64,000 bases of DNA from Chitinophagales bacterium. GTDB lineage: Bacteria; Bacteroidota; Bacteroidia; Chitinophagales; Chitinophagaceae. The position numbers and the translations under genes are program-made. How positions within the stretch are numbered: position 1 is the first letter of the stretch; every line of letters starts with the position of its first letter. The stretch lies in NCBI GenBank assembly GCA_021323755.1, contig JAJPKJ010000036.1, forward strand, positions 186,001 through 250,000. The letters run 5' to 3'. The notes beneath the pieces were generated by a model that was not told the DNA's origin, ran no database searches, and saw only the letters and a program-made list of their open reading frames with translations. Of this stretch, positions 4,771 to 61,418 are shown one piece after another.

Positions 4771-7209
4771 CTATTCTGTTCTCAGACTCTTCACCGGGTT
4801 TGCCAGGGCCGCTTTTATCGCCTGAAAACTTATTGTCGCAAATGCAATTACGATCGCAATGATTCCAGAGATCGCAAAGACCCACCAGCTGATGTTAATT
4901 CTATATGCAAAATCTTCAAGCCATTTATTCATTACCAACCATGTTAATGGAATGGCAATCAAGAATGCAATGGTCACCAGACGTAAAAAATCTTTTGATA
5001 ATAATATAAGCAATTGCGCGATCGATGCCCCCAATACTTTCCGCACGCCAATTTCTTTCCTTCTTTGCAAAACATTATAAGACGACAGACCCGAAAGTCC
5101 GAAACAGGCGATAAGAATTGCCAGCATTGAAAATATCGTGAATATGCTCCCGAACATTTCATCCGACTTATATTGATGGTTGAAGGAATCATCGAGGAAA
5201 AAATAATTGAACGGATCAGACGTAAAATATTTTCTCCATGTTTTTTCGATGGAAGCAACAGTCTGATGGATATTCTCTTTTCCCAGTTTGACAGAATAAT
5301 ACCGGCGTGCATCAGGCCGAAGCAAAACGATCATCGGTTCCACCTTTTTCTGTAACCCTTCATGATGATAATCCGCAATAACGCCAACAACGGTCAATGT
5401 ATCAGCCCGAATCACTTTTTGATTTACTGCATCTGCATCGCTCTTAAATCCCAATAGTTTTACTGCTTCTTCATTAAGCATGACAGCTTTATTATCGCTT
5501 GAAAAACTCTTTGAAAAATTTCTGCCTGCCTTTATTGAAATATTAAATGAAGGAATAAAATCATAGTCAACGCCAAGATGATATAAAGTAACTCCTTTGC
5601 TGTTTGCATCCAATCTGCGTATATCGCTCGTCCAGTAAATTTCATCACCCATTACTGATGTTGATGCGGTCACACTTTTTACATTCGGATCTCTCAAAAC
5701 ATCTTGCTTGAAGGGTTGAAAAGTATTCAGGTAAAAAGAATCCCGTATCGCCTCAGATCCGTTAATGACCAAAGTTTGACTGATATTGGTTCCTAATTTT
5801 TGATTGCGCATATAACTCAATTGCTGGTAAACGATCATCGTTCCCGCAACCAAGATCACTGATGTGATAAATTGAACGGTGATCAGCGATTTGCGCAACA
5901 ACACACCGCTGCTGGTATTTTTAAAAATGCCTTTTAAGACTTTTACCGGCTGATAACCTGATAATACAAACGCCGGATAAATTCCCGACAAAAAACTTCC
6001 TGCAAAAAACAATAACAGAAAACCTGCCCAGTAATTAATAGGCAATGCAAAATTTGTTGCTGTTTCCCTGCCGATAAATGCGTTGAACGCTGGGGTAATT
6101 AAATATGCGGCGGCAAATGCAATCAATAAGGCAATCAGATTCAACATAAAACTTTCCGTGAGAAACTGCCGGATAAGATCTGAACGAAATGCGCCAAGCA
6201 CTTTGCGAACGCCAACTTCCTTTGCCCTTTCAACAGAACGTGCCGTTGCCAGATTGATATAATTTATCCAGGCAATGAATATGATGAGAATGCCGATCAA
6301 AAATAAGAATCCAACGGTTTGTCCGTCGCCATTCACTTCCGCCTCCTGGTTATAATTTGAATACAAATGAATGTCTGAAAGTGGAAGAACGAACAATTCA
6401 TTTCTTGAATTATTTGCTTTTGCCCATTTTAGATTATTCATGTGCAGATCACAAAATGCTGGCAGTTTTGATTCTAATTTTTGCAGATCTGTTCCAGGTT
6501 TGAGTTTGAGATAAGTATAAAAATCATACCATCCCCAACTCGTTTCTGTTGCGTTTGATGTGTCGCCTTCCAGGCGATTTATTTTTCCCATCGTTGCGTA
6601 AGAAACCAAATAATCAATAATGAGGTGAGCATTTTTCGGGTAATTTTTAAAAACCCCGGTTATCAAATATGTTTGCACAAATTCCGGATCTTTTGAAGTA
6701 AGTGTTTTTCCAACGACATCATCAGTTCCAAAATATTTTTTTGCGATCGTTTCCGATACGATCATTTTATCCGGCGCATCCAGGGCAGCGTTAGCATTTC
6801 CTTTTTCTAATTTGACACCAAGCATATCGATGGAAGACGGATCTGCATAATATCCTTTTTTCTCATTGAACTTTATATCTTTTTCAGGATTCGATAATAA
6901 TAATTCCGCATCGTGCAGCCGGCAAAAATCTTCCACCTCAGGAAATTCTTTTTTAAGTGTTGGACCAATCGCGGGATAAATCGTTGCTGACTTCCACGCA
7001 AGTTGGCCCTGCTGGTATTGATCAAGCCGAAGTCTTACAATGTCGCCGGCTTCCTTATTAAATTTCTCATAACTTTTCTCGTAAGAAACATATTGAAATA
7101 TAAGCAGGCAGCATGTCACGCCTATTGCCAAACCAAATATATTCAGCAATGCATAGCCCCTGCGCCTGGTAAGGTTTCGAATTGCGATTTTAAAATAATT
7201 TCCGAACAT
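4771..7209 (-). CDS. double-FtsX ABC permease P1 (class V)
   Basis: An 812-residue inner-membrane permease and the last of the array. Counted landmarks: TM1 about 20-41; PCD1 with AKKYFG at 156-161; TM2 about 299-319; coupling helix KEVGVRKVLG at 330-339; TM3 about 353-373; TM4 about 393-415; linker QPVKVLKG; TM5 about 441-462. PCD2 contains NFSKSFSSD and VVGVIADYHHEGL (607-619). TM6 is about 689-709, the second coupling helix KEIGVRKVLG at 718-727, TM7 about 744-760, TM8 about 775-795. It is the permease nearest ATPase1 (108-bp gap), so it is the likeliest original partner of that ATPase. The PCD2 motif has HH-EG in place of the common HF-SL. Its substrate cannot be predicted. Confidence 0.93.
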   Translation of the reverse strand: MFGNYFKIAIRNLTRRRGYALLNIFGLAIGVTCCLLIFQYVSYEKSYEKFNKEAGDIVRLRLDQYQQGQLAWKSATIYPAIGPTLKKEFPEVEDFCRLHDAELLLSNPEKDIKFNEKKGYYADPSSIDMLGVKLEKGNANAALDAPDKMIVSETIAKKYFGTDDVVGKTLTSKDPEFVQTYLITGVFKNYPKNAHLIIDYLVSYATMGKINRLEGDTSNATETSWGWYDFYTYLKLKPGTDLQKLESKLPAFCDLHMNNLKWAKANNSRNELFVLPLSDIHLYSNYNQEAEVNGDGQTVGFLFLIGILIIFIAWINYINLATARSVERAKEVGVRKVLGAFRSDLIRQFLTESFMLNLIALLIAFAAAYLITPAFNAFIGRETATNFALPINYWAGFLLLFFAGSFLSGIYPAFVLSGYQPVKVLKGIFKNTSSGVLLRKSLITVQFITSVILVAGTMIVYQQLSYMRNQKLGTNISQTLVINGSEAIRDSFYLNTFQPFKQDVLRDPNVKSVTASTSVMGDEIYWTSDIRRLDANSKGVTLYHLGVDYDFIPSFNISIKAGRNFSKSFSSDNKAVMLNEEAVKLLGFKSDADAVNQKVIRADTLTVVGVIADYHHEGLQKKVEPMIVLLRPDARRYYSVKLGKENIHQTVASIEKTWRKYFTSDPFNYFFLDDSFNHQYKSDEMFGSIFTIFSMLAILIACFGLSGLSSYNVLQRRKEIGVRKVLGASIAQLLILLSKDFLRLVTIAFLIAIPLTWLVMNKWLEDFAYRINISWWVFAISGIIAIVIAFATISFQAIKAALANPVKSLRTE

Positions 7210-7320
7210 AAGGGGATTTATAATTAATTTATTTTCGGTTATGCATGGCTAATAATTTTCAATTTTTAGCTTCAGCTTATCGTTTTTTTTCTCAAAATGG
7301 GATTTCATTTCCAAATTATC

Positions 7321-9780
7321 TTATTCTGTTCTCAAACTCTTTACCGGGTTTGCCATCGCTGCTTTTACGGTTTGAATGCTTAAGGTTATTAATGCGATTA
7401 TTATCATCGATAATCCGCTTGCAGCAAATACCCACCAGTTTATTGAAGTTCTGTAAGCAAAATTCTGCAACCAGGTATTCATTACCCACCAAGACAATGG
7501 GGCTGCAATCACAAAGGCAATCATCACCAGCAACACAAAGTCTTTTGATAATAATGAAACAATATTTGCTACGGAAGCGCCCAAAACTTTTCTTACACCA
7601 ATTTCTTTGGTGCGAAGATTTGTTGTGTAGATCACCAATCCGAGTAATCCCATACAACTGATAAATATGGCTAGACCAGTTGCCCATTTTAACAAGCCTG
7701 AAAGATCCTGCTCGCTTTTATAGAATTTGGCAATGCTCGCATCAAAAAATTCATAGTTGAAGTCTTCTTCAGGATAATTCTTCTTAAATGCCGCCTCAAC
7801 TTTTTTGATCGTCACGGGCCATGCTGTGCCATCTGCACTTTGCGGTTTTAAAGCGATGTGAAAAGTATAGCTGTATTTATTTTCTGATGCAAATACAAGG
7901 GGCTTTACATTTTCATGCAATGATTGCTGATTAAAATCTGCCATCACGCCAACAATCGGTTTGCTGTTGATATTTTTATTCAGCGCATCTTCCGGATTTT
8001 TAAAACCTAAGATGTGCATATAAGTCTCGTTGATAACATATTCCTTAACCGTATCACTCTCCGTTGGCTTTCTGCCTGCGAGTAATCTTATATTATAGAG
8101 TTTAAGATAATTGCTGTCTCCATGTTTTTGCCGCACGTCGGTCTCAATTTCCTTTTTCCCATCCTGATACTTCATGGTGCTCATATTCCAGCCACTTGAA
8201 GATGGAGCAGCATCTCCTATGCTCACCATATCAATCCCTGAAATAGATCTCAGTTCATTTAACAATACAAAGCGTTTTGAATCCGGGTTTTCGAAATTAT
8301 GAAAATTGAAAGGTGCTCCAAAAAAGATGATGGCATCTTTTCTAAAACCCATGTCTTTGTTCACCATGTAACTGATCTGTTTTACAGAAATCACGGTTGC
8401 CATCACAAAAAACTGCGCGATAAAAAATTGAGATACTGTTAAACCCTTTCTCAGCAAGGCTTTTCGTGTTCCTGCTGTCCCTGTATAAGCCTGGTTTTTC
8501 AGCACCAGCGCAGGATTATATTTTGATAAGATCATGGCAGGATAAAATCCGGATAGAAAACTGACGGCAATTATCAAAGCGATCAAGAATAAAAAGATGC
8601 CCGGCTGTTTTAAAAGATCAAAATGCAGATCTTTTGGAATAAAATCTCCAAAAATTTTCAATAATATCGGGGTGATCGCGATGGATAATAAGGTAGCAAT
8701 GATGGTGATGAAAAAAGTTTCATTTAAGAATTGCAACTTTAATTGCCATCTTGAACCGCCCATCGTTTTGCGAATGCCAATCTCTTTAGAACGTTGTGCT
8801 GCCTGTGCAGTTGTGAGATTAATAAAATTGATGCAACCGAGTAATAATAAAAATGCGGCAACAGTAAGCAATCCGTATAGGGTATTTTTGTTTGCAACCC
8901 GATCTCCGATATTGCCATACTTGCCATCAAAATGAAGATCACTTAAGGGTTGCACACGATACACGGTGGTATTCTTACTATCCTTATTGCTGTCTTTGGA
9001 ATTTTTTGCCAGCACTTTTTTCAGCTGTGACTCAATGGAAGCTGTGGAAACATTTGGAGCCAGTTTCAAGAATAATTGCGAACCACTGTTCACGCTTCCC
9101 CATTCATCCCACGAATATATTTTTTTCAAGCCGCTGCTGGGGATGGTAGCTTGCGAAATGAATTCTTTGTATTTGAAATCTGTATTCTCGCTGAGATTTT
9201 TCACAATGCCGGTCACTGTTGTTATTATCGTGTCATCGTAGATGACCTGTTTGCCGATAATGTCAGCATAATTAACGGATGGAAAATATACCTTAGCTCT
9301 TTCTTCAGTAAGCACTAATTTGTACGGATCCTGCAACGCTTTTTCAGGAGTTCCGGCCAGCCACTGATAAGAAAGCATTTTTAGATAATCAGCGTCTGCA
9401 AAAATTATGTTATCCTGTTTTTTAAAAACATGAGGTTTTTCATTTTGATTTTTAGCAACGGAAACATTTGCATCGCCATTAAATTCATGGAAGGCGACAG
9501 CCTGCTCAAGTCCGGTTACATCTGCTTTGGTTGCTGCTGCCAGCGGTGATGTTACGCCCGAGAAGAAAAACGGCGTTCCGGCAAATTTCATATCAGATAC
9601 AATCCGGTAAATACGATTACCATCTTTCTCAAATTTATCGAAGCTGAAATCGTAATGAACGATCAGGTAGATCACTAATGCGGCGCTGATGCCGATTGAT
9701 AATCCGAGAATATTAATGAGCGAAAAAATTTTGTTTCGCCAAAAATTTCTGAAGGCAGTAACGAAATAATTTTTTAGCAT
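7321..9780 (-). CDS. double-FtsX ABC permease P2 (class IV)
   Basis: I place the start at the ATG at 9780 (819 residues, MLKNYF...), because every paralogue begins M-x-(K/R/Y/G)-x-(Y/F/H/L). A reading frame extends three codons further to a TTG, which I reject. Coupling helices are KEIGIRKTMG at 332-341 and KEIGVRKVLG at 725-734. PCD1 reads RAKVYFPS rather than the usual KKYFG, and the mid-linker is NPALVLKN rather than PVKVLKG; both are shared in spirit with P3. PCD2 ends in VGVMADFNQQSL. P2 and P3 have the same length and identical coupling-helix positions, so they are probably a local duplication. The gap to P3 is 79 bp. Confidence 0.92.
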   Translation of the reverse strand: MLKNYFVTAFRNFWRNKIFSLINILGLSIGISAALVIYLIVHYDFSFDKFEKDGNRIYRIVSDMKFAGTPFFFSGVTSPLAAATKADVTGLEQAVAFHEFNGDANVSVAKNQNEKPHVFKKQDNIIFADADYLKMLSYQWLAGTPEKALQDPYKLVLTEERAKVYFPSVNYADIIGKQVIYDDTIITTVTGIVKNLSENTDFKYKEFISQATIPSSGLKKIYSWDEWGSVNSGSQLFLKLAPNVSTASIESQLKKVLAKNSKDSNKDSKNTTVYRVQPLSDLHFDGKYGNIGDRVANKNTLYGLLTVAAFLLLLGCINFINLTTAQAAQRSKEIGIRKTMGGSRWQLKLQFLNETFFITIIATLLSIAITPILLKIFGDFIPKDLHFDLLKQPGIFLFLIALIIAVSFLSGFYPAMILSKYNPALVLKNQAYTGTAGTRKALLRKGLTVSQFFIAQFFVMATVISVKQISYMVNKDMGFRKDAIIFFGAPFNFHNFENPDSKRFVLLNELRSISGIDMVSIGDAAPSSSGWNMSTMKYQDGKKEIETDVRQKHGDSNYLKLYNIRLLAGRKPTESDTVKEYVINETYMHILGFKNPEDALNKNINSKPIVGVMADFNQQSLHENVKPLVFASENKYSYTFHIALKPQSADGTAWPVTIKKVEAAFKKNYPEEDFNYEFFDASIAKFYKSEQDLSGLLKWATGLAIFISCMGLLGLVIYTTNLRTKEIGVRKVLGASVANIVSLLSKDFVLLVMIAFVIAAPLSWWVMNTWLQNFAYRTSINWWVFAASGLSMIIIALITLSIQTVKAAMANPVKSLRTE

Positions 9781-9859
9781 AGATTGCAATTTTCCGATTT
9801 ACAATTTGGTGGTTTTAGATTCCCCATTATCAATTATCATTTATTGGTTATCCATTGCG

Positions 9860-12319
9860 CTACTCCGTTCTCAAACTCTTTACCGGGTTGGCTCTTGCTG
9901 CTTTTAGCGCATGAAAACTTACGGTTATCAATGCAATAACAAGAGCGATCAAACCGGCTAACAGAAACATCCACCATTGGATGGGTATGCGGTAAGCAAA
10001 ATCCTCCAACCACTTATTCATAGCCCACCATGCAATTGGCGATGCGATCAAAATAGAAATAATGATCAACTGCAAATATTGTTTTGATAATAACTGAACG
10101 ATGCCCAATACAGAAGCTCCCAGGACTTTTCTGATGCCGATTTCTTTTGTGCGTTGAAAAGCGGTGAGCACGGCCAATCCAAATAACCCTAAACAACTGA
10201 TAAAAATGGCGATGCCGGTTGCCAGATTGATAAGGGTTGCCAGATGTCGCTCAGTTTTATACATTTCTTCAATTGTCTCATCATAAAATTTGTATGAAAA
10301 AGATTCTGCCGGATAAAATTGATACCATTTCCTTTCAACTGCTTTTAATGTTGCCTGCCATTGAGCCGGGTTATTGCTCTCCAGTTTGATATTGAAAGTT
10401 GTCAGGTCCTCTTTTTCAGATTGAAAAGCCATGGGGTCAATGGCCTTGTAAAAATTCTGCAGATGAAAATCTTTAACGACACCTACTATTGGAAATTTTC
10501 CATCAGACTGCCCAATAAATTTACCAAGAGCTTCCCGAGGCGATTTAAATCCAAATTGATTCATCGCTGTTTCATTAATTACAAATTCATTGGTTGTATC
10601 TGATGCACGGATATTTCTGCCGGCAAGCAATGGTATATTATATAAACTGAGGTACCCCGTATCAACCCGTTTTTTAAAAACCTGTCTTTTAACCGGCGGT
10701 TTTCCCTCCTGGTCGTATTCATACCTGCTTGAAGAATATCCCTCTTCCATTGGTGGTGTACCAAGCGCCAGTTTTTGGATGCCGCTCACTTTTTTTAGTT
10801 CATCAAATAATACAAATTGTTTGTTCTCATATCTTTTATCAAACAAATATTTAAAAGGCACCTCTACCAGTACCACTGCATCTTTATTAAAACCCATATC
10901 TGTTGTTAATGCATAATGCAATTGTTTGCCAACGATCAATGCGCCGGTAATAAAAAAAAGTGCAATTGTAAATTGAAAAACGATCAGCACTTTTTGTAAA
11001 CTGATTTTTTTTGCGCTGTTTCCAATCACGGAGTAACCCCGAAATACATTAATCGTTTTAACTCTTGTAATAAGCCAACCCGGATAAATGCCGGCTAACA
11101 CCATTACCAAAATTGAAACAAGAACAACAAATGTTAATAATTGCAGCGTGTTTCCCAATGGTGTTACACCCGGCGGAATAATGTCTTTCAATAACCAAAA
11201 ATCAAAAAGACTTAATGCATGGGCAAAAATGGACGCCAAAAACGTGGTGCACAATGTTTGAATAAGAAACTGCAACATGAGTTGCACACCACTGCTGCCT
11301 AAAGTTTTACGTACTCCAATTTCTTTTGCGCGTTGCGGCATCGCCGCCACACTCATATTTACATAGTTGATGCAGGCAAGTAATAATAAAAATAAACCTA
11401 CCCCCATTAATCCAAACAGCACAGGTTTACTTGCTTTGCGAACTTGGTACTCCGGCGCATAGGTTGAAAAATGAGATTCTTTAAGTGGCATTAGTTCAAA
11501 ACTTCGGTTCATTTTAAAATCTTCTTTCCTCGTTTGCGCGAACTCTCTCTCTTTTTGTTCAGCCACTTTTGATATCTGACTCAATACATCCGCTGGTTTT
11601 GCGCCTTGTTTTAATTGCAGAAATAATCTGTCCGTACCGTTTGTGTTTGTCCATTCATTCAATCCAAAAGGTTTGGTGGATAGGGGAATAAATTCCTGTC
11701 CTGCGAATTCGGTTGGTTCTTCGAGATCCGCAACAATACCTGTAACAGTTCTGTGAACTGTATCTCGATATGAATAATAAGTGATGGTACGATTGATTAT
11801 ATCTTCCGGCTTTTTCCCGGGGAAATATTTTCTTGCCCTGCTCTCTGTAAGCACCACACTTTCCGGCGCGTTGAGCGCAGTTGATTTATTCCCGATGATC
11901 CAATGATAAGGCAGCATCGTGAAATAAAGAGAATCAGTACCATGAATAAGAAAATAAGGCGACCCCTCTATTACAAGAGGCTTTCCGTTTGCACTATTTA
12001 CTTCTACTGTGTTCACCCATTTACCTAAATCAGGAACAACATAATCAAGACCGCTTACAGACTCGCGAACACCCTGGTACATCGGCGCAGACACGCCGCC
12101 ATTATAAGAAGGTTTATCATCAAACTTAAATTTCGAAATAACCCGGTAAATCTTGTTCTTATTAGCAAGATCTTTATCATAACTGAATTCATAATCAACA
12201 ATTCGAAAAATCACCCAACATGCACTGATACTGACAGCTAATCCAAAAATATTCAGAACTGTGAACAAGCGATGCCGCCATAAATGACGCAGTGTAGTAA
12301 TAAAATATTTTTTGATCAT
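9860..12319 (-). CDS. double-FtsX ABC permease P3 (class IV)
   Basis: 819 residues, with coupling helices KEIGVRKTLG at 332-341 and KEIGIRKVLG at 725-734. PCD1 has RARKYFPGKKPEDII. Before the first coupling helix the usual LSTARS motif is replaced by MSVAAMPQR. The mid-linker KTINVFRG is the most divergent of the array. PCD2 carries VGVVKDFHLQNF and ends in a typical TM6-8 block with SFHALKAARANPVKSLRTE. It is 72 bp from P4. With P2 it forms a pair found only in the module nearest the TolC gene. Confidence 0.92.
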   Translation of the reverse strand: MIKKYFITTLRHLWRHRLFTVLNIFGLAVSISACWVIFRIVDYEFSYDKDLANKNKIYRVISKFKFDDKPSYNGGVSAPMYQGVRESVSGLDYVVPDLGKWVNTVEVNSANGKPLVIEGSPYFLIHGTDSLYFTMLPYHWIIGNKSTALNAPESVVLTESRARKYFPGKKPEDIINRTITYYSYRDTVHRTVTGIVADLEEPTEFAGQEFIPLSTKPFGLNEWTNTNGTDRLFLQLKQGAKPADVLSQISKVAEQKEREFAQTRKEDFKMNRSFELMPLKESHFSTYAPEYQVRKASKPVLFGLMGVGLFLLLLACINYVNMSVAAMPQRAKEIGVRKTLGSSGVQLMLQFLIQTLCTTFLASIFAHALSLFDFWLLKDIIPPGVTPLGNTLQLLTFVVLVSILVMVLAGIYPGWLITRVKTINVFRGYSVIGNSAKKISLQKVLIVFQFTIALFFITGALIVGKQLHYALTTDMGFNKDAVVLVEVPFKYLFDKRYENKQFVLFDELKKVSGIQKLALGTPPMEEGYSSSRYEYDQEGKPPVKRQVFKKRVDTGYLSLYNIPLLAGRNIRASDTTNEFVINETAMNQFGFKSPREALGKFIGQSDGKFPIVGVVKDFHLQNFYKAIDPMAFQSEKEDLTTFNIKLESNNPAQWQATLKAVERKWYQFYPAESFSYKFYDETIEEMYKTERHLATLINLATGIAIFISCLGLFGLAVLTAFQRTKEIGIRKVLGASVLGIVQLLSKQYLQLIIISILIASPIAWWAMNKWLEDFAYRIPIQWWMFLLAGLIALVIALITVSFHALKAARANPVKSLRTE

Positions 12320-22485: not shown

Positions 22486-22582
22486 TGTGCCGGAAGCAAT
22501 GTGAATGATTTACAGGATAATAGCTAATTATTATATACGAAGTAGTTCGTTTTTGATACAGGGAGTGTTCGGTTTTGATACA
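22486..22582 (-). promoter_or_regulatory. internal promoter/operator block, copy B (drives P7-P1, ATPase1, TolC)
   Basis: This lies in the 327-bp gap 22369-22695 and is identical at about 72 of 97 positions, without a gap, to 63731-63827. In plus-strand order it holds TGTGCC (GGCACA on the coding strand), ATGATTTACAGG (22505-22516), ATATACGAAGTAGTTCG (from 22533), and two direct repeats, GTTCGTTTTTGATACA at 22545-22560 and GTTCGGTTTTGATACA at 22567-22582, with a 22-bp period. ACGAA-N4-TTCGT forms a small palindrome overlapping the first repeat. The block ends 118 nt before the P7 start. The rest of the gap (22583-22695) shows only AT-rich sequence with a TAGGCCTA palindrome, and no gene. Confidence 0.75.
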
Positions 22583-51465: not shown

Positions 51466-53856
51466 TCATTCACTTCTCAGACTCTTCACCGGGTTCATTA
51501 ATGCAGCTCTGATGGATTGAAAACTGATCGTCATTAATGCGATCAGCATTGCCAATACGCCTGCAATTAAAAATATCCCCCAGCTGATATTGATCCGGTA
51601 TGGATAGCTCTTTAGCCAATTGTTCATTACCATCCATGCAATCGGAAATGCCACCATGCATGAAATTATTACCAGCTTCAAAAAGTCTTTTGATAATAAT
51701 GCGGTGATGCCAGACACGCTCGCCCCGAGTACTTTTCGTATCCCGATCTCTTTTGTCCTTCGCTCGGCGGTGTAGGCTGCCAAACCAAACAAACCCAAGC
51801 AGGAAATAATTATTGCCAATGACGCAAAAACGCGCGATAATTTACTGATCAACATTTCGCTTAAAAACATTTGGTTGAACTGATCATCAACAAATCTGTA
51901 TTGAAATGGATAAGCGGGATTATCTTTTTTCATTACGGCTTCTAATTTTGCCAATGTCTGTTCAGGGTCCCTTGAAGTTTTAGTATTCACATACATTATG
52001 GTTTCATCATGTGGTGGTACACAGAAAAAAATGACCGGGTCAGGTTTGCCATACATGTATCCGTAGACATAATCATTAACAACGCCGACAACATTTGCAT
52101 TGAGCGCACCGCTTTCATCTTTTATTATTTTCCCAATGGCGCTTCCTTTTCCCATCAGTTTTGCCATGGACTGTGTAATTAAAACATTAATGTTTTTAGG
52201 AGGGAGATCGAATTCTACGCTGTCAGTAATTTGCAGATCTCGTCCTTCTAAAATTTTCATTCCTGAAGTAGACATAAATTCAGGACTCACATTTCTCCAT
52301 GAAATAAGAATTCTGGCGCCAGGCGTTTTGGATGCCCAGCTCAAACCATCGGTATTATTGCCCCCATATATTATGGAGTGATCAGAGAGCGCAACGTTGT
52401 TTGCAATTCCTGTATTCAAGATATCCTGTTTTATCGCGCTAAAATGTTTTGCCATATCACCTTGCAGATTCATCTCTATCAAATTATCTTTATTAAAACC
52501 CAGGGTTCTGCTTTTTATATGTTGTATCTGCTGGTAAATAATTATAGTACCGATAATTAATATGATGGAAACAGAAAACTGCATTACCACCAATCCTTTC
52601 CTTATTAATGCTGCGCTACCTGATTTTAATTTTATTCCTTTCAATACAAATACCGGGTTGAATGATGAAAGATATAATGAAGGATAACTGCCCGCGACAA
52701 CACCACAAATCAATGTGATGAGCAATAAGATTATTATATGAAAGGGATTACTCAATCCTAATGAAAGATTCTTTTGAACCAATATGTTAAACGCAGATAA
52801 GGTAAATGACATGATAATTACTGCGGCAGCAGCGGAGAGGAATGCCATTAACAAGGCTTCGCCGATGAATTGCGAGATAAGTCTTTTTTTGCCGGCGCCC
52901 AACACTTTCCTCACGCCAACTTCACGTGCACGTTTTTCGCTGCGCGCAGTTGCCAGGTTCATAAAATTGATACAAGCGATCAATAAAATTACCCACGCTA
53001 TGATGGAAAATAAGCGAACGTATTCTATTTGTCCGCCGCCGGTTTGTTTTCCATTTTGAAAATCATCATACAAATGCCAGTCATTCATACCAAATAAAAA
53101 AACACGGCCGGTAGATGTCGGTGCTTTCTTCTGCACAAAATCATACATCTGTTTATTAATGTTTGCGAGATTTGCCCCGGGTTTTAATTCTACATAAGTG
53201 CTCAGACAATTATTTTCCCATTTGTATGCCCATGGACTCTGTTGATACCAGATCTGAAAAGGTGCAACCCATTCAAATTGCAGGGAGGAATTTTCAGGAA
53301 TATCTTTTAATACACCACTGACAACATAATTCTGTTTGTTATCCACTCGCACAGTTTTGCCGATAATATTTTTATCATCGCCAAAAAATTTTTTTGCCGT
53401 TTTTTCTGTAATGACGATGGAATACAATTGCGCGAAAGCACTTTTTGCATTGCCTTGTACAAAAGGCAACGTGAACATGTCAAACATCGAAGGCTCGACA
53501 TATTTGCCTTCCGCATAAACCGACTTGTCTCCAATTTGAAAAAGCAATGAGGTCTCATTTTCGCTCATGCGGCAGGTATTGGCGATACCGGGAATTTCGG
53601 CTCGCATTGCCGGACCTAAAACGCCTGGAGTTGATCCATGAGTGAACACGTTTGATTCCAACTGTGAATTTACGCGGACAAAATATAACTGATCCTTTCT
53701 TACATTAAACTTATCATAGCTCATTTCACTCTCCACCCATAAAAAAATTAATCCGGCGCATGCAATACCAATTGCCAAACCCAATATATTCAGGAAACTG
53801 TAGGTTTTGTTTTTCCACAGATTGCGAAAAGTTGTTTTGAAAAAATTTTTAATCAT
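51466..53856 (-). CDS. double-FtsX ABC permease P19 (class II)
   Basis: 796 residues, with coupling helices REVGVRKVLG at 311-320 and KEIGIRKVLG at 702-711. It has the N-terminus MIKNFFKTTFRNLWKNKTYS, WHLYDDFQNGKQTGGG, and KGIKLKSGSAALIRKGLVVMQF. The PCD2 motif is GVVNDYVYGYMYGKPDP, matching the MY-x-x-P pattern of P18. PCD1 has AKKFFGDDKNIIGK. It ends MNPVKSLRSE. The gap to P20 is 160 bp with no recognisable gene or strong structure. Confidence 0.92.
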   Translation of the reverse strand: MIKNFFKTTFRNLWKNKTYSFLNILGLAIGIACAGLIFLWVESEMSYDKFNVRKDQLYFVRVNSQLESNVFTHGSTPGVLGPAMRAEIPGIANTCRMSENETSLLFQIGDKSVYAEGKYVEPSMFDMFTLPFVQGNAKSAFAQLYSIVITEKTAKKFFGDDKNIIGKTVRVDNKQNYVVSGVLKDIPENSSLQFEWVAPFQIWYQQSPWAYKWENNCLSTYVELKPGANLANINKQMYDFVQKKAPTSTGRVFLFGMNDWHLYDDFQNGKQTGGGQIEYVRLFSIIAWVILLIACINFMNLATARSEKRAREVGVRKVLGAGKKRLISQFIGEALLMAFLSAAAAVIIMSFTLSAFNILVQKNLSLGLSNPFHIIILLLITLICGVVAGSYPSLYLSSFNPVFVLKGIKLKSGSAALIRKGLVVMQFSVSIILIIGTIIIYQQIQHIKSRTLGFNKDNLIEMNLQGDMAKHFSAIKQDILNTGIANNVALSDHSIIYGGNNTDGLSWASKTPGARILISWRNVSPEFMSTSGMKILEGRDLQITDSVEFDLPPKNINVLITQSMAKLMGKGSAIGKIIKDESGALNANVVGVVNDYVYGYMYGKPDPVIFFCVPPHDETIMYVNTKTSRDPEQTLAKLEAVMKKDNPAYPFQYRFVDDQFNQMFLSEMLISKLSRVFASLAIIISCLGLFGLAAYTAERRTKEIGIRKVLGASVSGITALLSKDFLKLVIISCMVAFPIAWMVMNNWLKSYPYRINISWGIFLIAGVLAMLIALMTISFQSIRAALMNPVKSLRSE

Positions 53857-54016: not shown

Positions 54017-56413
54017 CTATTCCGATCTCAAACTTTTTACCGGGTTTGCCACCGCCGCCTTTAACGCCTGGAAACTCACTGTCAATAAAGTGATCAGGAT
54101 TACTCCAACCCCGGAAATTCCAAAAACCCACCACGAAATATTTGTTCGATAATTATAATGCAATAACCAGTTGTTCATAAAATAATATGAGAGTGGAACT
54201 GCTATGAGCAATGAGATCATCACCAGCAATAAAAAGTCTTTTGATAATAGTCGCCACAGATTGAATAAGGATGCCCCAAGTACTTTTCTCACACCAATTT
54301 CTTTTGTTCTTTGCTCCGCAACAAATGAAGCAAGCCCAAACAAGCCGAGACAACTAATAAAGATGGCGAGCCCGGCAAAAAAAGTTGACAATTTGCCGAT
54401 GCGCTCTTCGGCAGCAAATTTTGACGCGAACTCTCTGTCAGCAAATTCGTAATCGAATGGCACAGAAGGAATATATTTTTTGAAAACCGATTCAACTTGG
54501 GAAATCGACTGCTTTGCACTTTTGTTTGGATTCAATTTTAAGATTATCCAATTAACATTGTCATAATCCATAAAATAAATGGTTTGCTTAACTGCATCGT
54601 ATGGCGATTCCATAAGTAAATCCTTAACCACGCCAATTATTTTATAATTTTTTGCGTTGGCATCTGTGCCCCACTTCACAATCGTGCCAACAGGATCTTT
54701 TAATCCCATATATTTTACCGCAGATTCATTTATTATGATTGCCGATGAATCTGAGGTAAATTCTTTGGAGAAATCTCTGCCTTCTTTCAATTGCCAGCTA
54801 ATTGTCTTTCCAAAATCGTGCGTTACCCAAATGGTTTCAAAATCTTCATCAAGACTTGGGTTTTGTCCTGGCCAGCTAAACCCATTATTGCTCGAATACA
54901 CGTTTGTCAAAGGACTATGCGACTCCGCCATTTGTTCGACTGCACCTGAATTTTTTAATTCGTTTTCAAGCAAACCAAACTTTCCATAAAAATCCGGCGT
55001 TTTCATTCTGATCATCATCAGTCCATTCCGATTATAACCGATCGGCCTGTTTTTGGAAAACTGAATTTGATTGTACACAACAATGGTCCCTATGATCAGT
55101 GCAAGAGAAATGCTGAATTGCATCACCACTAAAATTTTTCTTGGAATTGCTGCAAGGCGGCCAACTTTAAAAGTTCCTTTCAAAACTTTTATTGGTTGAA
55201 AAGAAGATAAATAAAGTGCAGGGTAACTGCCTGCAATAATTCCAGTAATGAATGAAAAGCCTAATCCAGCGATCCAGAAAAAAGGATTGTTCCAGGGAAT
55301 GATCATTTTTTTACTTGCTACATCATTAAACCATGGCAATATGAGCTGCGCTAAGACCAAAGACAACGCAAATGCCACCATAACGATCAATAAAGATTCA
55401 ACGTAAAACTGCATTACCAGTTGACCACGCAAAGAGCCAATAGATTTACGAATGCCTACTTCTTTTGCACGTTTTTCGCTGCGCGCCGTACTCAAGTTCA
55501 TAAAATTGATGCAGGCGAGCAACAGAACAAAAATGCCAATGATACTGAATAATCTGACATATTCTATTGGACCACCCGTTCTTATTCCATTCTCAAAATG
55601 TGTTCTCAAATGCCAGTCACGCATCGGGTTTAGAAAAACTTGTGCATTATATTTTTTGTCTTCCGGCGCATCATGAATATTTTTTGAGTGCATGATATTT
55701 CTGTCGACCGCATCAAACGCTGTATGATCTGCTATCTGCACATAGATCTGAAAAGAGTTATTATCCCATGCTGCTTCCGATTGCTTGATCCATTTTTCGC
55801 TGGTGAGATATAAACTCCACGGGGCAATATATTCAAGACCGGCGAACTCTGTATTTAATGGAATGTCTTCATAAACGCCTGTAACTTTAACATCCAGTTT
55901 GTGACCGATTTTCATCGGCTTATTAATAGGATCATCATTCCCGAAAAATGCTTTTGCCATTGACGAAGAAATGATAATTGTATTTGGATATTTTAAAGCA
56001 TCGTAAGATCCTTCGATCATTTTTAGCGAGAACATCCTCGGACCATCTTCATCCATAAAAATGCCGCGTTTGGAGAGATTTTTTTCCCCGGCGGTAATGA
56101 TCCCATCTCCTGCCCAGGAAGTCATCACCACGTATTTAAAATTATTCCCGTAATTGGTCTGTAATTCTTTTCCCAAAGGCAGAGGCATGCCATTAAAAGT
56201 GGAGATATTTCCGTTTGCCGTTTGGTGCTGCATCAGCTGTGCAATTCGGTCATAGTTCTTAAAACTTTTATTGAAGTTAACCTCATCATAGATCCAAAAT
56301 CCGATCAGCAGTGCAACTGCCATACCAACAGCAAGTCCGCCAATATTAATTACAGAAGACATTCTGTCTTTCAATAAATTTCGCCACGCTATTTTGAAAT
56401 GATTTTTAAACAT
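54017..56413 (-). CDS. double-FtsX ABC permease P20 (class I)
   Basis: 798 residues, with coupling helices KEVGIRKSIG at 317-326 and KEIGVRKVLG at 704-713. Class I marks are GMAVALLIGFWIYDE, WHLRTHFENGIRTGG, QPIKVLKGTFKVGR, PRKILVVMQF and MESPYDAVKQ. PCD1 has AKAFFGNDDPINK. PCD2 has FSWPGQNPS. It ends NPVKSLRSE. It is the third permease of its module, the position that a class I protein (P12) also holds in the second module. The gap to P21 is 58 bp. Confidence 0.92.
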   Translation of the reverse strand: MFKNHFKIAWRNLLKDRMSSVINIGGLAVGMAVALLIGFWIYDEVNFNKSFKNYDRIAQLMQHQTANGNISTFNGMPLPLGKELQTNYGNNFKYVVMTSWAGDGIITAGEKNLSKRGIFMDEDGPRMFSLKMIEGSYDALKYPNTIIISSSMAKAFFGNDDPINKPMKIGHKLDVKVTGVYEDIPLNTEFAGLEYIAPWSLYLTSEKWIKQSEAAWDNNSFQIYVQIADHTAFDAVDRNIMHSKNIHDAPEDKKYNAQVFLNPMRDWHLRTHFENGIRTGGPIEYVRLFSIIGIFVLLLACINFMNLSTARSEKRAKEVGIRKSIGSLRGQLVMQFYVESLLIVMVAFALSLVLAQLILPWFNDVASKKMIIPWNNPFFWIAGLGFSFITGIIAGSYPALYLSSFQPIKVLKGTFKVGRLAAIPRKILVVMQFSISLALIIGTIVVYNQIQFSKNRPIGYNRNGLMMIRMKTPDFYGKFGLLENELKNSGAVEQMAESHSPLTNVYSSNNGFSWPGQNPSLDEDFETIWVTHDFGKTISWQLKEGRDFSKEFTSDSSAIIINESAVKYMGLKDPVGTIVKWGTDANAKNYKIIGVVKDLLMESPYDAVKQTIYFMDYDNVNWIILKLNPNKSAKQSISQVESVFKKYIPSVPFDYEFADREFASKFAAEERIGKLSTFFAGLAIFISCLGLFGLASFVAEQRTKEIGVRKVLGASLFNLWRLLSKDFLLLVMISLLIAVPLSYYFMNNWLLHYNYRTNISWWVFGISGVGVILITLLTVSFQALKAAVANPVKSLRSE

Positions 56414-56471: not shown

Positions 56472-58904
56472 CTACTCTGTTCTCAAACTATTCACCGGAT
56501 TTGCAACGGCCGCTTTTATTGCTAAAAAACTGATTGCCATCAAAGCAATCAACATGGCCAATAGTCCTGCAACTAAAAATATCCACCAGCTGATATTAAT
56601 GCGATATGCAAAATTGTTCAGCCAGTTATGCATTGCCCACCAGGTTACCGGTATAGAAATGATAAAGGCAACGCACACCAGCAATAAAAATTCTTTTGTT
56701 AAAAGAACCAGCACCTGGTTTATTGATGCCCCGAGCACTTTGCGGATCCCAATTTCCTTTGTGCGTTGTTCGGTTGTAAATGCAACCAATCCAAATAATC
56801 CGAGACTCGCGATCAGCAAGGCGATCCCTGCGAACATGGTAAATATTTGTCCGGTCTTTTCTTCAGCTTTATATAATAAAGCAAATTTGTCGTCAAGAAA
56901 ATAGTAAGAGAATGGCGTTCTGGCATTATAACTATTCCATTCTTTTTTTGTATCGGCCAAAAAACCGGGGATATCCGCAGTTTTCATTTTTACCATTATT
57001 GTTCCGGAACTGCGCCCGAGCATCATCATTACTGGAGCGATTTTTTGTTTTACAGAAGCGTAATTAAAATCTTGTACTACTCCAATCACATTATATTGAT
57101 GTTGCCCGGAAGAAATAATTGTTTTATCAAGAGCGGTTTTATTATCCTTCCATCCCAGGTCGCGAACGGCAGCTTCATTAATTACAACAGCAGTCGAATC
57201 ACCATGAAAATCTTTGGAAAAATTTCTTCCGGCAATTATTTTCATTCCCAACGTTGATATATAGTCGAGATCAACATGAAAATAATTGGCGTGAATTTCA
57301 CTTGCACTTTCGTTTGATTTATTTTCTTTCGCGTAAACCTCCGAGCCATCCATATTCCCTTCTGCGCGACCGACCGGAACGTCTCTTGAAATTGTTGCAT
57401 TGATCACGCGACTATCACTCAAAAGTTTTTGTTTGAAAGAATATTGATTGCTGTCTAATCCATAGGTATCCTGCAGCACCAACACCTGTTCCTTGTCGTA
57501 ACCTAATTTTTTATTTTGCATAAAATGCAACTGCTGGTACACAACAATAGTTGCAATCATCAATGCGGTAGAGATCATAAATTGAAAAACGACCAATCCA
57601 CTGCGAAGCCGACTTCTTTTTGCGGGAGTATTCGAAGAAGCACCCTTTAAAACACTGATGGTTTGAAATGAAGAAAGAAAAAATGCCGGATAAATTCCCG
57701 CTAATATTCCCACAAAAAATATTAATCCAACGGCAGCAATGATCGCTTTATAATTCAGAAAAAATAAAATGCTGATGTTTTTTCCTGAAAGATGATTGAA
57801 CGATGGTAATAATAAATAAACGAATAACAAGGCAAAAAGCATTGCGCAGCAAGTAAGCAAAACAGATTCCGTTAGAAACTGAAATATCAACTGATCTTTT
57901 ACAGAACCAAGCACTTTGCGAATGCCCACTTCGCGCGAACGTTTTGCAGAACTTGCGGTTGAAAGATTAGTGAAATTAACGCAGGCAAGTAATAATATAA
58001 ATACAGCGAGCGCGCCAAAAATGTAAACATATTGAATGTCGCTATTTGCATCCAACTCATATTTTGTATTGGAATGGAGATGAATATCAGTAATTGGCAT
58101 GAGGTAAAAATGCCAACTGCCGACACCCTTTTGCGCCTCCGCCAAACTAATTCCCATATCCCGCGCTCCTTCCGGCACTACATATTTACTAATGAGTTCA
58201 GGAAATTTTGCTTCTAATTTTTTTGGGTCTGCCTCTTTATTTAATAACAGGTAAGTGTAAAAACCAATATTGCTCCAGGTGTGTCCCGTCACAGCATAAT
58301 TGTTAGAGGTCATGCTTACAAAAGCATCATAATGAAAATGAGTGTTGTCAGGCACTTTGTCAATTATTCCAGTCACCTTAAATGTGCCTCTGCCTATTGT
58401 AAGCGCTTTGCCCAATGCTTTTTCATCGCCAAAATATTTTTTTGCGAATGCTTTGCTGATGACAATAGAATTTGGAGCCACCAGAGCTGTCTTATCATCT
58501 CCCTCAATCAATGGGATAGAAAAAAGTTGCAGAAAATTGGAATCACAAAAAGCAATATGCTGTTCTTTGAATTGTTTTTCCTGGTAGTGGATGAAGACAT
58601 CATTCCAACCATTGATCCTTGTCGAAGCAAGCACTTCGGGATAAGTATTTTTGACTCCGGCGCCAACGGCAACATCGACATCAGGATAATCGGCTATCCC
58701 AGCGTTTTGTGTTACCTGCAACCCGAGGCGGTAAATTTGATTGGCATGTTCAGGATACTTATCATAACTCAATTCATCAAACAAAAAGGCGGCGATCAGC
58801 ATGCAGCAAGTGAGTCCCACGGCTAAACCAAAAACATTGATAAAAGAAAAAATTTTATTCTTTCTCAAGTTTCTCAGCGCTATCCTGAAATAGTTTCTGA
58901 ACAT
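56472..58904 (-). CDS. double-FtsX ABC permease P21 (class V)
   Basis: 810 residues, with coupling helices REVGIRKVLG at 324-333 and KEIGIRKVLG at 716-725. The N-terminus is MFRNYFRIALRNLRKNKIFS. PCD1 has AKKYFGDEKALGK and a long insert near residues 245-265 (EGARDMGISLAEAQKG). The linker is QTISVLKGASSNTPAKRSR. PCD2 has NFSKDFHGDSTAVVINE and GVVQDFNYASV. It ends NPVNSLRTE. It is second in its module, like P13, with which it shares the KIFS N-terminal pattern and an FS-PLI-G segment in PCD1. The gap to P22 is 108 bp. Confidence 0.92.
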   Translation of the reverse strand: MFRNYFRIALRNLRKNKIFSFINVFGLAVGLTCCMLIAAFLFDELSYDKYPEHANQIYRLGLQVTQNAGIADYPDVDVAVGAGVKNTYPEVLASTRINGWNDVFIHYQEKQFKEQHIAFCDSNFLQLFSIPLIEGDDKTALVAPNSIVISKAFAKKYFGDEKALGKALTIGRGTFKVTGIIDKVPDNTHFHYDAFVSMTSNNYAVTGHTWSNIGFYTYLLLNKEADPKKLEAKFPELISKYVVPEGARDMGISLAEAQKGVGSWHFYLMPITDIHLHSNTKYELDANSDIQYVYIFGALAVFILLLACVNFTNLSTASSAKRSREVGIRKVLGSVKDQLIFQFLTESVLLTCCAMLFALLFVYLLLPSFNHLSGKNISILFFLNYKAIIAAVGLIFFVGILAGIYPAFFLSSFQTISVLKGASSNTPAKRSRLRSGLVVFQFMISTALMIATIVVYQQLHFMQNKKLGYDKEQVLVLQDTYGLDSNQYSFKQKLLSDSRVINATISRDVPVGRAEGNMDGSEVYAKENKSNESASEIHANYFHVDLDYISTLGMKIIAGRNFSKDFHGDSTAVVINEAAVRDLGWKDNKTALDKTIISSGQHQYNVIGVVQDFNYASVKQKIAPVMMMLGRSSGTIMVKMKTADIPGFLADTKKEWNSYNARTPFSYYFLDDKFALLYKAEEKTGQIFTMFAGIALLIASLGLFGLVAFTTEQRTKEIGIRKVLGASINQVLVLLTKEFLLLVCVAFIISIPVTWWAMHNWLNNFAYRINISWWIFLVAGLLAMLIALMAISFLAIKAAVANPVNSLRTE

Positions 58905-59012
58905 GTTTAAATATTTATGATGCTAGATGTAGGGTAAAGCGTTTCCGTCTTCGGTTATGCATTACTGATAATTCCCAGTTTTGAGTTTTCAGTTTGAAGC
59001 TCCCCATTAACC

Positions 59013-61418
59013 TCACTCTGTTCTCAAACTTTTCACCGGGTTTGCAATTGCTGCTTTTATCGCACGATGCCCAACAGTTATCCATGAAATAATGATAGAG
59101 CCTGCAATTGCCAATAAAAATGTCGATGCGCCCAAATCAATTCTATAGGTGTAATCAAGCAACCACTTATGCATAATATAATAAGCTATCGGGGCAGCAA
59201 TGGCAAATGCAATTATTATCAGCAACGTAAATTCTTTTGAGAAGAGGTAAACAATATTTTGTACAGATGCGCCAAGCACTTTACGAATGCCCACTTCTTT
59301 GGTGCGTTGTACGGCCATGAATGACACCAGACCATATAATCCAAGGCATGAAATGAATATGGCCAATCCGGCAAAAACCTTGTACAGTAGGGAAAGTTGG
59401 TTCTCCTGTTTGTAAAATCCAGCAATCGTATCATCAAGAAATCTATATTCATACACATAATCGGGAAAAGCATCGTTCCAGACCTTTTCAATAAAAGGTA
59501 AGGTTGCTTTTTCTGCTCCCGGTTTGATTTTAATATTGATGGTTTGATAAAAGTCTTTCGCAGAACTTAGCACCACTGCTCCGATTGGTTTACGCAGTGA
59601 ATAAGTATTAAAATCACGGATCACTCCGACAATGTTTGCCACTTTCGCTCCATTCCAAAAATTAATTTGTTTCCCAATTGCATCTTTTGGATCTCTGATG
59701 CCTAATTTTTTAATCAGCGTTTCATTCACCACAAATTCGCGGGACGTATCGGAAGGATAAAAGGCGCGCCCGGCAACGAATTGCAGGTTATAGGTTTTGA
59801 AATAATTTTCATCAGCCCATTTGAGGTTTGCGCTGAAGTCCGTTGTTTTCGCAGAATGATCAAATTTAAAATCACTGTTCCAATTGCTTTCAGAAGAAGG
59901 GCTCGTAAAACTGAAACTCACATTTTTTATATCGGGGTTTTTAAGAAGAGCGTCGCGAACATAATTAATTTTTGTATGGCTAACGCTATCACCCGGCAAT
60001 CCAACATTGAGAATAGCTGCTTTATCAAAGCCGAGAGAAGCAGTTCTGAAATAATTCATCTGGCTTACCACAATCAACATGCCGATGATCAGAATTTGAG
60101 CGATCACAAATTGCAAAACGACCAATACTCTGCGTAGTGAAAGACCGCCAACCATTTTAGAGGTGATCTTACTTTTTAACGCAGTGATTGGATTAAACCC
60201 GGATAAAATGATTGCCGGATAAATTCCGGATAAAAATGTAACGAGCACAAGCGTAGTTACAAGAAATAGTGTCACCACAGGGTTAGCAATAAAATTGATC
60301 GACATTTTAATTTCCAACAATTGATTAACTAAAGGCAATACAATGATTGCTATTCCGACCGCAAAAATTATTGCGGCAAATGTGATCAGAAATGTTTCGC
60401 CAAGAAACTGAAGAGCGAGTTGCAGGCGGTTGCTTCCTAAAACTTTTCGGATGCCAACTTCCTTTGAGCGATTTACCGCCTGGGCAGTGGCCAGGTTAAT
60501 AAAATTGACAGAGGCAATGACAATGAGAAAAACGCCGATCAATGCTAATGCTTCTATTAATGAATGACCAAAAGTGTGGCCAGAAAAATTTCCGAACCGG
60601 TTATCAAAGTGTATTTCAGTTAATGGTTGTGCGTAAGAAGCCTCTTTAGCATATTCAGCAGGTTTATGTTTTTTTGAAAATGCTTTCAGTTGCTCATTGA
60701 ATTTAATTTGAGAAATTTCAGGTGGCAAAACAACAAAAGTATATGCATCCCCAAAAGTGCTCACCCAATCTTTCAAATTATCTTTTAAATATGTACTATT
60801 GATTGCAGAGTATGAAACGACGATGCCTAAAGGGAAATCGCTGTTAGCCGGAATGTTTTTTAATATGCCACAAATTTTATATGGCGTTTTATTTTCATAC
60901 TTAAATGTTTTACCAATTGCAGATCTCCAGTCTCCAAAATATTTTTCTGCAACTTCCTGGGTAATTGCCGCAGAGTTTGGATCCTTTAAACAAGTTTGTG
61001 GATTGCCTGAAAGCCATCCAAAATCAAAGATTGAAAAAAATTCAGGTTCGGCATAAAAAAAATTGTCCGCGTTGAATTTTTTTTGTGAACCGTTATTGTC
61101 AATGGTTATTTGTCCGCCCTGGTTAAAAATGGAGGCCACTTCTTTTACCTGGGGGAAATCCAGACGAAGCTGCGGTCCGACAGGAAGGGCGCAGCCGGCA
61201 GTATAATTCATGCCATCGGCGCCAGGCAATTCAGTTCCGATCCGATAAATTTCATTTTTCTTTTTATGAAAATTATCAAAGCTCGTTTCAAATTGTATTA
61301 CCAAAAAAATAAGAAGGCACGCTGCAATACCTACTGCCAGTCCAACAATATTTATTGCAGCGTACCCCTTATTGCGTAATAAATTTCTAAATGCAGTTTT
61401 AAAATAATTATAAAACAT
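59013..61418 (-). CDS. double-FtsX ABC permease P22 (class III), first permease of the array
   Basis: 801 residues, with coupling helices KEVGIRKVLG at 319-328 and 707-716. It has class III marks (TAQAVNRSKEVG, NPITALKSK, VSFMAVQRTKEVG, YLFSKEF). PCD1 has AEKYFGDWRSAIGK. The PCD2 motif is GVIRDFNTYSLRKPIGA. TM2 ends IASVNFINLA, lacking the cysteine that most paralogues have there (AC-x-N). It starts 95 bp after ATPase2 and is the likeliest ancestral partner of the adaptor/ATPase2 pair. A small GC hairpin lies 33-45 nt in front of its start. Confidence 0.93.
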   Translation of the reverse strand: MFYNYFKTAFRNLLRNKGYAAINIVGLAVGIAACLLIFLVIQFETSFDNFHKKKNEIYRIGTELPGADGMNYTAGCALPVGPQLRLDFPQVKEVASIFNQGGQITIDNNGSQKKFNADNFFYAEPEFFSIFDFGWLSGNPQTCLKDPNSAAITQEVAEKYFGDWRSAIGKTFKYENKTPYKICGILKNIPANSDFPLGIVVSYSAINSTYLKDNLKDWVSTFGDAYTFVVLPPEISQIKFNEQLKAFSKKHKPAEYAKEASYAQPLTEIHFDNRFGNFSGHTFGHSLIEALALIGVFLIVIASVNFINLATAQAVNRSKEVGIRKVLGSNRLQLALQFLGETFLITFAAIIFAVGIAIIVLPLVNQLLEIKMSINFIANPVVTLFLVTTLVLVTFLSGIYPAIILSGFNPITALKSKITSKMVGGLSLRRVLVVLQFVIAQILIIGMLIVVSQMNYFRTASLGFDKAAILNVGLPGDSVSHTKINYVRDALLKNPDIKNVSFSFTSPSSESNWNSDFKFDHSAKTTDFSANLKWADENYFKTYNLQFVAGRAFYPSDTSREFVVNETLIKKLGIRDPKDAIGKQINFWNGAKVANIVGVIRDFNTYSLRKPIGAVVLSSAKDFYQTINIKIKPGAEKATLPFIEKVWNDAFPDYVYEYRFLDDTIAGFYKQENQLSLLYKVFAGLAIFISCLGLYGLVSFMAVQRTKEVGIRKVLGASVQNIVYLFSKEFTLLIIIAFAIAAPIAYYIMHKWLLDYTYRIDLGASTFLLAIAGSIIISWITVGHRAIKAAIANPVKSLRTE

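Follow-up and report, generated by a model that had tools for sequence, protein, structure and literature searches.

Permeases of the MacB/FtsX type figure in several described systems, each of which resembles in some respects the locus considered here, a single-strand array of 22 such permease genes in a 64,000-nucleotide stretch of a Chitinophagales bacterium genome (GenBank assembly GCA_021323755.1, contig JAJPKJ010000036.1, positions 186,001–250,000; hereafter the window). DarBCD comprises one permease and one ATPase, and the YbbAP operon encodes a single permease but lacks an adaptor/TolC pair. The ADOP permeases form large paralogous families without an ATPase of their own. Group II energy-coupling factor (ECF) transporters, which are importers of unrelated fold, offer a shared energy module to many S-components. 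Large orphan families of FtsX-type permeases in Bacteroidota and Acidobacteria are annotated without a role. A review of tripartite pumps portrays MacB as a mechanotransmitter that moves periplasmic domains and does not carry cargo through the inner membrane (PMC8277102). Counts of genes annotated as ADOP in two genomes of Dyadobacter are 28 and 33 (PMC11573002), and FtsX/MacB domains and Toastrack/DUF4097 have been treated together with the HAAS-PadR system (PMC11237479). The ADOP and DarB permeases themselves are already known; the literature searched, whose coverage left out subscription papers and preprints, yielded no description of an engine or a regulon that such permeases would share, which is weak evidence of novelty.

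The array is best read as the expanded form of a conserved, regulated system with one engine and many permeases, and not as a freak. Our preferred reading, to which we assign a probability of roughly 0.58, is that it belongs to a modular, co-regulated type VII (MacB/FtsX-type) exporter in which one engine works with the array permeases, and probably with most of the permeases dispersed elsewhere in the genome, as alternative parts. Along the direction of transcription (minus strand), the locus encodes an adaptor, ATPase 1, permeases p01–p08, a DUF4097/LiaG-like protein, p09–p22, ATPase 2, and a TolC-type protein (Table 1). An NtrC-type regulator gene diverges from the adaptor gene, its orthologues adjoin the adaptor in relatives, and a histidine kinase gene lies behind it. 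A preliminary description made from the letters of the window had listed one adaptor, two ATPases, and one TolC-type protein, all of which are located there; it overlooked the DUF4097 gene and the divergent regulator/kinase pair.

The likeness to MacAB-TolC resides in the MacB_PCD and FtsX domains, the HlyD/MacA-type adaptor, and the TolC-type partner in the operon, with MacB among the best sequence and structure matches. Unlike MacAB-TolC proper, where the ATPase is fused to the permease, this locus has separate ATPase genes of two kinds, two-in-one permeases with eight transmembrane segments, and 22 permeases (56 genome-wide) in place of one. As in DarBCD, permease, adaptor, and ATPase are separate, and among NCBIfam models DarB, DarC, and DarD rank first or second; the scores stay below the equivalog cut-offs (100–175 of 700 bits for two permeases, 153 of 450 for the adaptor, and 246 and 297 of 375 for the ATPases), and, in contrast to DarBCD, no peptide precursor or radical SAM gene was seen among the window genes examined. 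The ADOP model (TIGR03434) matches all 22 permeases over its full length, with its curated cut-off of 622.3 bits reached by none of the candidates scored in this genome (two array members score 267 and 301 bits); unlike the ADOP families, the family studied here is linked to a single engine and a single control site. YbbAP shares the double FtsX permease and the separate ATPase. The group II ECF transporters are similar in logic only, that is, in having two different ATPases in one engine that serves many swappable, scattered membrane parts; no ECF family, and hence no S- or T-component homology, appears in the Pfam matches of the 22 permeases.

The Pfam scan reports MacB_PCD and FtsX in all 22 permeases and, besides these, one stray weak match, with no ATPase domain in any, which bears out the earlier account of 22 ATPase-less double-FtsX permeases on one strand between positions 4771 and 61418. 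The lengths, given there as 786–819 residues, measure 787–822 with mechanical start choice, and the starts of p11 and p21 are doubtful and probably lie further in. The DarB and MacB NCBIfam models also match all 22, DarB over its full length. The permease genes are separated by 33–327 bp, except for one gap of 1308 bp that contains the DUF4097 gene. Pairwise protein identity is 27–57% (median 35%), so the copies are not assembly duplicates, and duplication during assembly was rejected. That the array might otherwise be an artefact of assembly finds some encouragement in the 75 contigs of the genome (4.08 Mb, 99.8% complete); such an artefact is very unlikely, to the point of being negligible, given copies that are at most 57% identical and a layout that recurs in many independent genomes, with 44 copies in one relative (G031; G, C, and L numbers label genomes, contigs, and sequence stretches) and 19 in the single-contig genome G111.

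In relatives, the recurring layout is a divergent regulator followed by adaptor–ATPase 1–(permease)n–ATPase 2–TolC. An adaptor match is present in 31 of 33 genomes of the genus, the two misses being 78% and 80% complete, and 28 of the 31 hold a single close copy; a second, at 59–60% identity, occurs in G002, G007, and G020. In G002 and G020 second copies lie away from the main locus (L077, L076: G002 C15, G020 C9), and in G002 one adjoins a single permease. Agriterribacter, Flavihumibacter, Lacibacter, Paraflavitalea, and Mucilaginibacter are among the named adaptor relatives, and these names suggest that the present organism is a member of Chitinophagaceae. Counted in the 21 loci bounded by both ATPases (ATPase 1 of G111 being taken from the family sample described below), n ranges from 0 to 44. 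The largest slots are those of G031 (44), the present genome (22), G111 (19), G054 (14), G067 (12), G079 (10), and G002 (8), followed by G020, G007, and G039 (7 each, three of G039's being fragments), G011 (5), G009 (4), G019, G038, and G029 (3 each), G030 (2), G001 (2, both fragments), and G008, G027, and G006 (1 each, that of G006 short). At n = 0, in G107, both ATPase genes are adjacent. An inversion interrupts the locus in G085, and that of G090 contains one permease and lacks ATPase 2. The G031 slot extends over about 132 kb, unrelated inserted genes included, and all 44 of its permeases exceed 650 aa.

A broader sample of 78 family genomes, each at least 98% complete, contains relatives of ATPase 1 or 2 (E 1e-60 or better) in 38. 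Both ATPases lie on one contig and strand in 26 of the 38, one of these (G094) being ambiguous in that its partner ATPase is uncertain, and they are more than 50 kb apart in three: the present genome, G111, and G079 (92 kb, with only 10 permeases plus unrelated genes). As far as the loci were read, a slot above 20 occurs in this sample only in the present genome. Slots of more than 20 permeases are rare yet form the end of a range, and 22 belongs to its upper tail without being unique. The view of 22 as a one-off, taken in the preliminary description, is not supported. Its suggestion that the system is built around permease diversity is supported: the engine parts are conserved and near single-copy, and the permeases vary in number and kind. 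Across the loci compared, ATPase 1 is 86–96% identical versus 58–86% for the adaptor, placing the ATPases among the most conserved parts, and TolC is by far more variable between species than the ATPases. Such high conservation is expected of a hub that fits many partners, and is not proof of one. A DUF4097 relative is found in seven loci (the present one, G035, G031, G111, G079, G085, and G054).

The permeases appear to be old. A tree limited to the 211 permeases, out of 233, that reach 650 aa (other genomes being represented by slot members only) places the nearest relative of 36 of 55 permeases of this genome, including 16 of the 22 array members, in another genome and not among its own paralogues. 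At a cut of 1.0, the tree resolves into 73 clusters, of which the present array spans 18 and the G031 slot 32; 12 of these 32 are shared with the present array and 6 only with dispersed permeases of the present genome. The dispersed C12_3, C40_4, C40_5, and C22_2 have G031 slot members as their nearest relatives, and one block of four is collinear (p11–p14 with G031 8–11). Recent local tandem amplification was rejected, adjacent genes being barely closer than in random order (p 0.03 in the present array, 0.57 in G031), although exceptions such as p04/p05 and p17/p18, at 55% identity, occur. Judging from the tree, the array combines many old lineages in a mosaic and did not arise by recent amplification, and the slot seems to bring together a repertoire that lies scattered elsewhere.

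These patterns bear on the possibility of neutral accretion, in which a locus prone to recombination accumulates paralogues that are for the most part dispensable. Copy number does vary widely among relatives, fragments occur in the arrays of G039, G001, and G006, and unrelated genes have been inserted in those of G025, G031, and G079. We nevertheless regard accretion as decidedly unlikely: all 22 open reading frames (ORFs) of the present array are intact and the full set of 44 in G031 is above 650 aa, the control sites described below are conserved, the foreign nearest neighbors in the tree speak against local piling up, and the ratio of nonsynonymous to synonymous divergence (dN/dS) is low. 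It amounts to about 0.04–0.25 in 17 pairs of relatives' slot permeases, two of which are visibly paralogue pairs (dN 0.56, 0.36), and indicates purifying selection. Special diversifying selection on the periplasmic domains was also considered and rejected, as periplasmic parts have diverged 1.43 times as much as membrane parts in array paralogues and same-cluster pairs alike.

Conservation within the permeases is concentrated where an ATPase would dock. Over the 231 pairs of the 22 permeases, mean identity is 63% in the coupling segments and 49% in the whole membrane part, versus 27% in the periplasmic parts. Both coupling loops are kept in all 22, the two loops differ consistently from each other, and a C-terminal N-P-x-x-S-L-R-x-E is likewise kept in every member. 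The two ATPases, grouped by more than 75% identity to the window copies, differ in fixed motifs: among sequences that contain the complete motif, NLDS is found in 38 of 38 of ATPase 1 and NLNS in 22 of 22 of ATPase 2, and LSGGQQQR occurs in 38 of 40 of the former, LSGGQQQL in 22 of 22 of the latter. These differences fit, and do not prove, a mixed ATPase pair that would serve a two-in-one permease. A structural model of p14 (predicted local distance difference test, pLDDT, 85.5; predicted template modeling score, pTM, 0.79) has a MacB-like fold with periplasmic core domains and the coupling loops. Its best whole-length structure match is E. coli YbbAP (9ge6_A, E 5.7e-23, TM score 0.49); MacB matches over half, and BceAB is also among the matches.

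The permeases of the array are a minority of their kind in this genome. A MacB_PCD search combined with ORF reading yields 56, two of them cut by contig ends, with 34 outside the array on contigs C27 (9), C22 (6), C45 (6), C40 (6), C12 (4), C13 (1), C19 (1), and C50 (1). The earlier judgment that 22 is far beyond the need of one transporter presupposes a single transporter; a shared engine with many alternative permeases would be more economical, and the 34 further permeases enlarge the set to be explained. In a loose first look with the ADOP profile, whose figures are candidates and not gene counts, 12 genomes of the genus (the present one included) gave 24–121 candidates per genome and seven genomes of other families of the order gave 2–12. 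A C-terminal DNA pattern tried as a family counter found 52 places in the present genome and only 8 in G009 (90 profile candidates), and was left unused for species comparison.

A common upstream site connects these dispersed genes with the array. In 29 of 35 regulator–adaptor intergenic regions, that of the window included, two TGTATCNNAANCGNAC-like sites are spaced at exactly 22 bp. All but one of these 29 regions also have a TGGCAY element 68–70 bp beyond the start of the second site. Allowing at most one mismatch, the site pattern matches 28 times in the present genome versus 8 times for a reversed-pattern control; 19 of the 28 matches, and 8 of the 11 exact ones, lie in the right orientation within 300 bp of a downstream permease or adaptor gene. 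A position weight matrix (PWM) built only from adaptor-upstream sites of other genomes scores at least 11 upstream of 14 of the 56 permeases; in relatives, where some G002 stretches overlap and a few genes are seen twice, 12 of 198 permease upstream regions score at least 15 versus 0 of 429 control regions (best control 3.8). Since a copy of the adaptor-upstream site opens the runs that contain 31 of the 34 dispersed permeases, the unit would be a genome-wide regulon and not one array; if downstream genes are co-transcribed, 53 of the 56 permeases belong to co-directional runs headed by a site or by the adaptor promoter. G111 gives an independent test: a permease or adaptor gene follows 14 of the 17 exact matches and 10 of the 43 with one mismatch (control 14), and the site is present at 19 of the 29 run heads that lie outside the slot. 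This test entered 49 of 65 ADOP rows (the 16 omitted being fragments of entered genes, half-length proteins, and one divergent 854-aa frame in two rows), with seven gene starts extrapolated and, for these seven, an upstream interval of 400 instead of 300 bp. The site also stands before ATPase 2 in G085 and G054. The array itself has at least two candidate promoters, at the adaptor and at p16, because a site pair precedes p16 as well.

The position and geometry of the sites suggest that the neighboring NtrC-type regulator would bind them. This regulator has a sigma-54 activator domain, and a sigma-54 gene (RpoN) is present in the genome. Relative to the sigma-54 consensus, the spacing of the adaptor-upstream element is usually one base short. 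No full sigma-54 consensus was found near the adaptor at one mismatch. The −12 half is imperfect, and consensus scans of the window and of L011, finding no more than chance, do not support a textbook sigma-54 promoter. A generic promoter scan was similarly uninformative (64 found, 68.7 expected). A second kind of leader was observed upstream of dispersed permeases on C27, C40, and C45: a 39-base stretch, occurring with at most three mismatches in six genome copies, five of them shortly before permeases, and combined with a variant of the site some 110 bp upstream of the start codon. A terminator-like hairpin with a T-run separates the TGGCAY element from the start of the adaptor gene, and several relatives have a hairpin of different letters at the equivalent place. 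Attenuation of the operon is possible; terminator-like sites in the scanned region number 16 versus 17.0 expected, and no Rfam RNA was found in the leader up to E 0.5 (window 60000–64000).

A number of observations weigh against a single engine and regulon of this scope. Three of the 11 exact sites in the present genome and 3 of 17 in G111 are not before permeases; C50 and C45a begin without a site, a third run head is cut off by a contig end, 10 of the 29 G111 run heads outside the slot lack the site, and the genome-wide pattern statistics in G111 assume uniform chance. The TGGCAY element fits sigma-54 promoters in its −24 half only, and the leaders of many dispersed permeases are of another kind, with no TGGCAY at the expected distance. 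The equal ratio of 1.43 leaves the periplasmic domains without a sign of special diversifying selection. A separate set of TolC-like, adaptor-like, ATPase, and single-FtsX genes on the array contig (L103:3388-8124) is, by its gene content, another MacAB-like pump, four further ATPases of the LolD/MacB type match at 38–47% in the same genome, and the dispersed permeases might use these other ATPases or the L103 pump. Engine sharing, cargo, and direction of transport are, moreover, read from genes and sequences.

The permeases could alternatively be co-regulated without sharing an engine, each using other ATPases or none and only a few array members using the adaptor and TolC. The further LolD/MacB-type ATPases suit this alternative, particularly the LolD-like L101:6099-6758 (C19:42111-42710), which is 45% identical to ATPase 1 and has a one-mismatch site about 175 bp upstream, as does a TolC far more variable across species than the ATPases. 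We consider it unlikely on balance: no adaptor or ATPase relative is labelled beside the dispersed permeases in any of the nine stretches fetched, the coupling loops and C-termini are conserved across all 22 array permeases, and the locus with n = 0 retains both ATPases.

Under the one-engine exporter that we favor, adaptor, ATPase 1, ATPase 2, and TolC, encoded once beside the NtrC-type regulator and its kinase, would form the engine. The conserved coupling loops and C-terminus of each permease would serve to recruit the common ATPases in the cytoplasm, ATP would drive that permease's own pair of periplasmic domains, and cargo bound by these domains would pass to the common adaptor and TolC and be released outside. 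A signal would reach the kinase and then the regulator, which would act at the tandem sites before the adaptor operon, p16, and the dispersed runs. Amphiphiles or peptides of the periplasm may be the cargo; the reading is weakest in what it says of direction and cargo. A more specific form, which we hold tentatively and at somewhat less than even odds, follows ECF logic: a single-copy engine (mixed ATPase pair, one adaptor, one channel) would serve about 50 interchangeable ancient permeases under one NtrC-type regulator, with permeases moving between dispersed sites and a slot of 0–44 that collects the export repertoire.

The permeases could instead be sensors, that is, mechanotransmitting receptors of envelope damage that signal to the kinase as BceAB does to BceS, which would make the system a detector of envelope stress. 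Intramembrane-sensing kinases have a transmembrane hairpin with almost no loop, and by hydropathy the kinase beside the array has just such a hairpin and lacks a periplasmic domain. The structural matches of the p14 model include BceAB, and DUF4097/Toastrack proteins are linked to envelope-stress systems (PMC11237479). Against this stand the dedicated adaptor and TolC in the operon, which point to export, and the number of permeases, as 56 would be needless for sensing alone; we judge sensing without export quite unlikely, while noting that it can be partly true alongside export.

If the engine is indeed common, a class of unexplained genes would resolve into one system with a known regulator, and an exporter would exist whose specificity part is modular and expandable while its engine and channel are single. 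The features of the locus are collected in Table 1.

Table 1. Genes and candidate control elements of the permease array (window positions unless prefixed by L011)
Feature	Position	Strand	Length (aa)	Remarks
NtrC-type response regulator	63940–64000, continues as L011:1940-3298	+	452	Response_reg, Sigma54_activat, HTH_8
Histidine kinase	L011:3288-4631			Behind the regulator gene, outside the window
Upstream site 1, before adaptor	63808–63827	−		TGTATCAAAAACGAACACTT; PWM 29.0 (PWM trained on other genomes)
Upstream site 2, before adaptor	63786–63805	−		22 bp from site 1; PWM 28.0
TGGCAY element	63732–63737	−		About 69 bp downstream of site 2; resembles sigma-54 −24 element
Terminator-like hairpin with T-run	63643–63664	−		Between TGGCAY element and adaptor start
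HlyD/MacA-type periplasmic adaptor	62355–63608	−	417	HlyD_3; RND_mfp above cut-off, DarC below cut-off
ATPase 1	61514–62191	−	225	ABC_tran; DarD best NCBIfam model, below cut-off
Permease p01	59013–61418	−	801	
Permease p02	56472–58904	−	810	
Permease p03	54017–56413	−	798	
Permease p04	51466–53856	−	796	
Permease p05	48957–51320	−	787	
Permease p06	46539–48923	−	794	
Permease p07	44104–46467	−	787	
Permease p08	41654–44035	−	793	Tree cluster common to the sole permease of n = 1 loci G008, G027
DUF4097/LiaG-like protein	40562–41593	−	343	Between p08 and p09
Permease p09	37931–40345	−	804	
Permease p10	35446–37827	−	793	
Permease p11	32769–35159	−	796	TTG start; ATG at 35129 likelier
Permease p12	30317–32701	−	794	
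Permease p13	27847–30243	−	798	
Permease p14	25311–27737	−	808	Cluster present in most loci (17 genomes)
Permease p15	22696–25125	−	809	
Internal site 1, before p16	22563–22582	−		PWM 27.1; exact pattern match
Internal site 2, before p16	22541–22560	−		PWM 26.5; exact pattern match
GGCAC element	22487–22491	−		Downstream of the internal pair
Permease p16	19963–22368	−	801	
Permease p17	17482–19872	−	796	
Permease p18	14914–17295	−	793	
Permease p19	12392–14758	−	788	
Permease p20	9860–12319	−	819	
Permease p21	7321–9789	−	822	TTG start; 819 aa from ATG at 9780
Permease p22	4771–7209	−	812	
ATPase 2	3994–4662	−	222	50% identity with ATPase 1, from which it differs in fixed motifs
TolC-type outer-membrane efflux protein	2505–3959	−	484	OEP; TolC model below cut-off

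Several further features of the surroundings deserve mention. The DUF4097 protein has, by eye, a signal peptide and TSGGS repeats and looks exported, in contrast to Toastrack, for which PMC11237479 predicts an intracellular location. A probable MetX gene in the window (1404–2432, plus strand) adjoins the array. Genes at L016:18024-19280, L023:1-1796, and C53:71356 presumably belong to methionine/cysteine biosynthesis, and genes of this type adjoin the array, adjoin the C22 permease run, and follow one exact site copy, a proximity that may be coincidence or a hint of the cargo. The contig that holds the array has another local run of paralogues at L012:1-8595 (C73:170001-178595), made up of five tandem oxidoreductase-like genes that we take to be of the GMC type.

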